DNA from: Sphingomonas sp. Leaf407
GTDB lineage: Bacteria; Pseudomonadota; Alphaproteobacteria; Sphingomonadales; Sphingomonadaceae
Assembly: GCF_001425385.1 (NCBI RefSeq)
Contig: NZ_LMQO01000001.1
Location: 310,001-374,000 of the forward strand
DNA: 64,000 nucleotides
Direction: 5' to 3'
The notes beneath the pieces were generated by a model, which did no database searches, was not told where the DNA came from, and was given only the letters and a program-made list of their open reading frames with translations. The position numbers were made by a program, and so were the translations under genes. This document shows positions 33,108 to 33,291 of the stretch, one piece after another (within the stretch, counting starts at the first letter, position 1; every line of letters begins with the position of its first letter).

Positions 33108-33138
33108 ATTTGCGACGAACCGTTTTTTACCAGATGTT

Positions 33139-33249
33139 GAGTCCGCCGGCACACGACAGACTCCATATGTGGCCGGAAGCGACTCGATTCGGCGCGGGAA
33201 CGAATCGCTTCGACCACAAGAGTCAACCCCACCCCCTTGACCGCGACTC
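33139..33249. promoter_or_regulatory. Cluster of seven GANTC (CcrM) sites upstream of ccrM
   Basis: GANTC occurs at 33139 (GAGTC), 33159 (GACTC), 33181 (GACTC), 33186 (GATTC), 33202 (GAATC), 33220 (GAGTC) and 33245 (GACTC). That is seven in 111 bp, whereas random sequence of this composition would give about one per 300 bp. The gene just downstream encodes the enzyme that methylates this site, so methylation-dependent autoregulation is the likely reading. The promoter itself should lie in 33108-33291. Confidence 0.75.
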
Positions 33250-33291
33250 GCGGATTGGCCGAAATAGCGGGCTGCAAGGGGAAGAAATACG

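Follow-up and report, generated by a model that had tools for sequence, protein, structure and literature searches.

Why should the gap in front of a gene for a GANTC adenine methyltransferase be crowded with the target of the enzyme itself? The question arises from the window, the 64,000-nucleotide stretch of Sphingomonas sp. Leaf407 DNA analysed here, in which rnhB and ccrM are separated by 184 bp (33108-33291, between the rnhB stop ending at 33107 and the ccrM ATG at 33292). A preliminary description had counted seven GANTC sites within 111 bp of this gap, two of them directly adjacent, and had proposed that they form a cooperative autoregulatory switch or a binding platform for a regulator such as GcrA. 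All seven sites are confirmed within the gap at the coordinates in Table 1, and 33181-33185 directly abuts 33186-33190. The arrangement is kept across sphingomonads and partly in other alphaproteobacteria, which suggests that ccrM may read its own methylation state.

Table 1. Features of the rnhB–ccrM region (window coordinates)
Feature	Position	Strand	Basis
rnhB (RNase HII), upstream neighbour, stop borders the gap	32514..33107	+	Pfam RNase_HII 2.2e-40
Dyad left arm CCAGATGTTGAGTC, contains GANTC 33139	33130..33143	+	Profile R1 match, both strands
Dyad right arm GACTCCATATGTGG, contains GANTC 33159	33159..33172	+	Alignment, profile R1
GACTC near the outer-right GANTC slot of relatives	33181..33185	.	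Alignment
GATTC abutting the 33181 site	33186..33190	.	No counterpart there in displayed relatives (alignment)
GAATC, variable middle region	33202..33206	.	Alignment
GAGTC, start 17 nt before -35 box	33220..33224	.	Alignment position
Putative -35 box TTGACC of ccrM promoter	33237..33242	+	Alignment
GACTC in -35/-10 spacer, widely shared slot	33245..33249	.	Alignment; 3 nt after TTGAC
Putative weak -10 box CGAAAT	33260..33265	+	Inferred from 17-bp spacing
ccrM, GANTC adenine methyltransferase, 371 aa	33292..34407	+	Pfam N6_N4_Mtase and RAMA domains

GANTC is depleted in this genome, and the enrichment before ccrM had therefore been understated. The preliminary description took one site per 300 bp or so as background, which is wrong: the window holds 87 sites where dinucleotide shuffles average 301, and 1955 sites, or 1.18 per kb, were counted in 1.654 Mb of the genome (44% of it, window included). 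The central base of these genomic sites is A or T at 76% of them. Density is 1.11 per kb inside and 1.88 per kb outside crudely called open reading frames of at least 150 codons; at the outside rate, the Poisson probability of at least seven sites in a given 111 bp is about 3e-9. Similar clusters before unrelated genes would have spoken against autoregulation, and none with more than four sites per 115 bp lies elsewhere in the 1.654 Mb. The cluster as a common feature of the genome is rejected for this 44%. Behind ccrM, at 34440-34560 of the window, repeat-like GGGAATCC/GGATTCCC stretches make up a small GANTC group with spacing 0, 23, 51, a spacing that recurs at C1:144063.

For comparison, we assembled a sphingomonad-type set of 108 sequences chosen by CcrM closeness (the window, L001-L076, L082-L084 and L111-L138), drawn from 80 named genome loci and from genus and family members, some of them MAGs classified only to class or phylum. 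L075, from Limoniibacter (Hyphomicrobiales), belongs to the set and is excluded from counts of 107, while L079 was dropped as too short. The genus is represented by 29 sequences besides the window, out of 100 genus genomes with a CcrM match (its own included). Outside the family, the upstream regions of 86 genomes were taken from the 236 class genomes with a match (own and family included); because they come from the upper part of the ranked list, distant ccrM copies are under-sampled. Within the genus, one genome encodes another near-full-length relative of CcrM, 71% identical to the query (G357:C15:20305-21375), and in a different genome ccrM is split into two adjacent matches (G313:C1:2039098-2040197).

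All 107 sphingomonad-type upstreams have at least three GANTC sites in the 330 nt before codon 20 (mean 5.7), and 76 of the 107 have at least five; within the genus, the number per upstream ranges from 3 to 9 (30 sequences). GANTC is the most enriched of the 16 palindromes of the same form in the 108-sequence set, with 614 sites against 157 expected under a first-order Markov model, and the runner-up, AGNCT, reaches 166 against 85. Upstreams of the 86 other alphaproteobacteria hold 331 GANTC sites where 116 are expected. Across 75 named loci (1.37 Mb), at least five sites per 115 bp occur at ccrM in 32 and elsewhere in a single locus. Seven per 115 bp, as in the window, are reached at ccrM by 9 of the 75, and 5 reach only two there. 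The array as such is therefore conserved and the window stands at its dense end; the expectation that close relatives would keep the sites was borne out for the array but not for its full density. In the Hyphomicrobiales-type named loci with enough DNA (L075, L077, L078 and L080), the counts are 1, 0, 0 and 2, consistent with the control of ccrM by CtrA described in rhizobia (PMC2877005). Distances between GANTC sites in 162 thinned sequences peak at 9-11, 19-20, 29, 39 and 49 bp, a period of about 9.75-10 that 0 of 500 jittered sets reach; the shared ancestry of the slots is still contained in this periodicity, and independent selection for phase is not claimed.

The conserved region has two parts. 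The upstream element in aligned relatives comprises an outer GAGTC followed, some 29 bp further along, by an inverted pair, CCACATNTTGAGTC / GACTCAACATCTTGTGG, here called the dyad. The GANTC starts of its left and right arms lie 20 bp apart in the window; among the 59 sequences with both, the spacing is 20 bp in 45 and 19 bp in 14. Slots were read in a 90-sequence subset, namely those of the 108, window included, with a right-arm score of at least 22 of 27 (18 omitted). The left slot is GAGTC in 59 of the 90 and the outer-left slot in 80, and neither is ever another GANTC. Because the original score favours GACTC, the right slot was rescored ignoring the central base, which gave GACTC in 85, GAATC in 1 and no GANTC in 5 of 91 sequences. 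The half-site flanks, CCACATNTT, are conserved. In 15 of the 90, a DnaA-box-like stretch replaces the left half-site, and 33 have a further, outer-right GANTC, which begins 19 bp on in 28 of them and, for the window's 33181 site, 22 bp past the right-arm site. The near-fixed central base of these half-sites, stricter than a mere methylation target would need, points to an additional sequence-specific protein that may act on them.

This element is specific to ccrM. Within 1.654 Mb of the genome, GAGTC-N13-17-GACTC occurs only there. The looser GAGTC-N12-18-GACTC is found in 58 of the 108-sequence set versus 10 of the 86 other alphaproteobacteria, with 6 and 2 for an everted-order control; a strict dyad pattern was not used, as it did not fit the right-arm spacing of sphingomonads. 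Profile R1, built on the upstream element of 48 relatives with the window left out, matches the whole genome at a single place, C1:343127-343175, where both strands score (E 5.6e-7 and 3.9e-5; 150 of 447 first-look candidates scored). In a family test of 59 genomes, one per genus and all with ccrM, R1 has a match at E<=1 in 56 and at E<=1e-3 in 53. At the latter level the match precedes ccrM by no more than about 300 bp in 53 of 53, with no second place among the 78 candidates scored per genome; weaker second places have E from 0.008 to 1. Six family genomes do not reach 1e-3: three give no match, G414 has one at ccrM (0.0026), and G393 and G397 have one elsewhere. R1, like the promoter profile R2 described below, was built partly from lineages later searched with it.

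Downstream of the dyad element lies a predicted promoter, in which TTGAC is followed by GANTC within 16 nt in 99 of 107 sphingomonad-type upstreams. The arrangement extends beyond the family: among the 86 other alphaproteobacteria, 54 have at least the spacer site and 65 at least one GANTC in or near the spacer, whereas the promoter is without GANTC in 21 and the entire upstream in 6. After the -35 box, 51 members of the 108-sequence set and 37 of the 86 others carry a pair of sites. A third site, 12-22 nt before TTGAC, is present in 46 of 61 other alphaproteobacteria versus 23 of 99 sphingomonad-type sequences. The promoter consensus, TnTTGACGGCGANTCCnnGnTGACTCAnnnTG, comes from 43 sequences picked for having the pair; because the R2 input was selected for TTGA[CT] and two GANTC, those letters are conserved by choice.

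Given a 17-bp spacer, the second promoter GANTC ends at -12. The A at -11 and the T at -7 are key positions of a -10 box. The base after site 2, at -11, was unused in picking and is A in 84 of 88 pairs, and T stands at -7 in 34 of 37 pairs outside the family versus 28 of 51 in the sphingomonad set. The two sites are 11 bp apart in 53 of the 88 pairs, 10 bp in 21, 9 bp in 9, 12 bp in 4 and 13 bp in 1. All four bases are seen at the centre of site 1, as a constraint on the CcrM target would predict; the centre of site 2 shows C, A or T, never G. Searched against 28 whole genomes, R2 has its best match at ccrM in 23, its second best there in 2 and none there in 3, including the window's genome, where R2 matches nowhere at all; few other places score alike among the part of the first-look candidates that was scored. 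A row of the profile came from 21 of the 28 genomes; in the other 7, ccrM is best in 3, second best in 1 and unmatched in 3.

Against this background, the window keeps both dyad arms (33139 and 33159), the GACTC near the outer-right slot (33181), the GAGTC ahead of the -35 box (33220) and the GANTC of the spacer (33245). Neither an outer-left GAGTC nor a second promoter GANTC is present, and the sites at 33186 and 33202 are extra; 33186, 33202 and 33220 lie away from the common sphingomonad positions. The window is therefore a reshuffled member of the conserved region, as judged by alignment, with a predicted weak -10 box.

GcrA, DnaA and CtrA were considered as proteins that might act on this region. 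The genome encodes GcrA (PF07750 5.1e-22, G000 C1:167126-167347), in an open frame of 318 codons (G000:C1:166619-167347) with an Ala/Pro-rich acidic stretch between two conserved ends. PF07750 is above cut-off in 64 of the 86 other alphaproteobacteria; the 22 with no match above cut-off all have CcrM, among them G066, a single contig rated 100% complete that carries the paired promoter. CcrM can therefore occur without a recognisable GcrA. The paired promoter is found in 26 of the 64 genomes with GcrA versus 11 of the 22 without a detectable one, so it does not follow GcrA.

The DnaA box, TTATCCACA, is present in perfect form in 44 of the 108-sequence set, where scrambled boxes average 0.11 (maximum 4), and in 9 of the 86 other alphaproteobacteria (scrambled mean about 0.1). 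Of 46 boxes that could be placed, 37 are close to the predicted start or within the linker of the dyad; L047, L041, L002, L117 and others show boxes (TGTGGATAA) or close forms at the predicted start or in place of the left half-site. The window's upstream region has no such box, nor does the 1.654 Mb of its genome. A CtrA box, TTAA-N7-TTAA, is likewise absent from the gap, since no TTAA occurs anywhere in 33108-33291. In the stretch between dyad and promoter, GTTCCG...TTAAC-like runs recur in many Sphingomonas loci and may hold CtrA half-sites. An RNA hairpin or riboswitch in the leader is rejected, since the consensus fold is weak (-0.18 kcal/mol; of its 4 pairs, 1 changes on both sides) and no Rfam match appears at E up to 1. 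Nor does the GC skew of C1:1-794000 show a clear turn at 343 kb that would mark a replication origin.

We think it probable that the gap is a dedicated control region, which would couple ccrM transcription to the methylation that CcrM itself leaves behind. This reading is drawn from the sites, their specificity to ccrM, their retention and the promoter consensus, and several others compete with it. That the cluster arose by chance, under relaxed constraint in a lightly selected spacer, is almost certainly wrong: three of the seven sites (33186, 33202 and 33220) do lack positional conservation, but the Poisson probability given above and above all the retention of the region over the order and partly over the class refute it. 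A more serious possibility, which we still hold to be unlikely, is that the upstream part serves simply to bind a transcription factor dedicated to ccrM, with a half-site that happens to contain GAGTC, methylation being incidental. The left and outer-left slots, in which GAGTC is the only GANTC seen, the near-uniform GACTC of the rescored right slot where A/T-centred sites prevail genome-wide, and the conserved flanks would all fit such a factor. It would leave unexplained, however, the promoter sites with their variable central base, and it offers no reason why the half-site of a single-locus factor should be the target of the very enzyme under its control.

Other alternatives differ in which protein would read the sites. 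GcrA, together with the sigma70 RNA polymerase, might recognise the methylated spacer site and activate ccrM, giving positive feedback with the methylated promoter on. The genome has the gene, the spacer site CGACTCG (33244-33250; reverse CGAGTCG) fits the extended motif YGAKTCK (PMC7987155), and in Caulobacter it is from between -35 and -10 that a GANTC activates (PMC3708114, PMC4287350), a position occupied in the window between the predicted boxes. The presence of paired promoters irrespective of PF07750 tells against it, although a gene missed in a draft or a diverged GcrA could account for some of those genomes, and we regard this reading as rather doubtful. The proposal of autoregulation is well supported by the signs of selection, having withstood, within the limits described, both the search for other clusters and the comparison of relatives, whereas GcrA as the reader, possible in this genome, receives no support from co-occurrence. 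DnaA could instead be the main input, a DnaA-controlled promoter tying CcrM to replication initiation with GANTC secondary. The excess of perfect boxes and their placement agree with this, and DnaA sites at ccrM were predicted by Brilli and others for cases lacking CtrA sites (PMC2877005), but the window and the covered part of its genome are without a box, and we consider it improbable.

A bolder version, which we hold to be unlikely, is that the ancestral alphaproteobacterial ccrM promoter was a methylation sensor read directly by RNA polymerase without GcrA, and that a second protein reads the ccrM-specific, methylatable dyad. With GANTC built into the -10 box (C at -12, A at -11), hemi- or full methylation might then tune promoter opening. 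If so, the CtrA control of ccrM in Rhizobiales and Caulobacter would be a derived state.

In the coupled control region that we favour, a sigma70-type promoter would consist of TTGAC and a spacer GANTC, joined in many relatives by another site that is fused to the -10 box. Its strength would shift when the replication fork turns the sites from fully methylated to hemimethylated. Upstream, the inverted pair of GAGTC half-sites, two helical turns apart, would bind an additional protein, and methylation may affect that protein's access too. Most likely, by analogy, the promoter would be stronger when hemimethylated and go down once CcrM has finished, which amounts to negative feedback. This sign is favoured because it is reported for Caulobacter ccrM itself, and by analogy with ctrA P1; the sequence does not decide it, and the precedents differ. 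For Caulobacter ccrM, modelling papers describe GANTC at the promoter and expression from hemimethylated DNA (PMC2217572, PMC8865702), whereas at ftsZ and mipZ, where the effect of CcrM needs a GANTC between -35 and -10, methylation activates (PMC3708114). The two give opposite signs of feedback.

Published work on related organisms bears on several of these points. Caulobacter transcription start sites with GANTC between -35 and -10 are treated as a timed class (PMC4287350). In Sphingomonas sp. AAP5, GANTC sites carry methylation (PMC8067484). Anoxia represses ccrM 7-fold in Sphingopyxis granuli, an effect that the authors do not attribute to slow growth alone (PMC6472365). In the sphingomonad species studied ctrA is dispensable, and the cell-cycle genes examined in Sphingomonadales have no clear distribution (PMC8116508). 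Brilli and others caution that GANTC counts alone do not prove control by methylation (PMC2877005). In a paper on MucR and hypomethylation, no mention of the ccrM promoter was found (PMC5172544). What was already known is GANTC at ccrM in one model species, Caulobacter. Beyond Caulobacter, the literature searched, in which subscription journals are scarcely represented, gave no earlier description of an array of GANTC sites or of a dyad in front of ccrM. As far as these searches show, the new features are the order-wide array, the ccrM-specific dyad of nearly fixed central base, the fusion of GANTC to the -10 box in the promoters of many alphaproteobacteria, and the independence of this promoter from the distribution of GcrA.

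Caulobacter, with its CtrA, is the main source of what is known about how CcrM is confined to a brief period of the cell cycle. Many of the sampled alphaproteobacteria instead have the CcrM target within the core ccrM promoter, and in sphingomonads a single-copy dyad is added. Defined sequences are thus at hand for testing a methylase gene as a self-reading timer, with the dyad as bait for a putative regulator.

The nearest known system is the ccrM promoter of Caulobacter crescentus, taken here from its description, where the promoter region likewise holds the target of its own enzyme. That promoter is activated by CtrA and, with its leader, carries two GANTC sites, whereas the window has no CtrA box, seven sites and an added upstream dyad. 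What it has in common with ftsZ and mipZ of Caulobacter, regulated by CcrM and GcrA, is a sigma70 promoter with a GANTC in its -35/-10 spacer; unlike these, ccrM promoters often have a second GANTC that forms the upstream edge of the -10 box and is not tied to the presence of GcrA. Synthetic CcrM memory circuits also read a methylase gene through the methylation state of its own promoter, but their reader is an engineered zinc-finger repressor (PMC5458116), whereas a natural one is proposed here.
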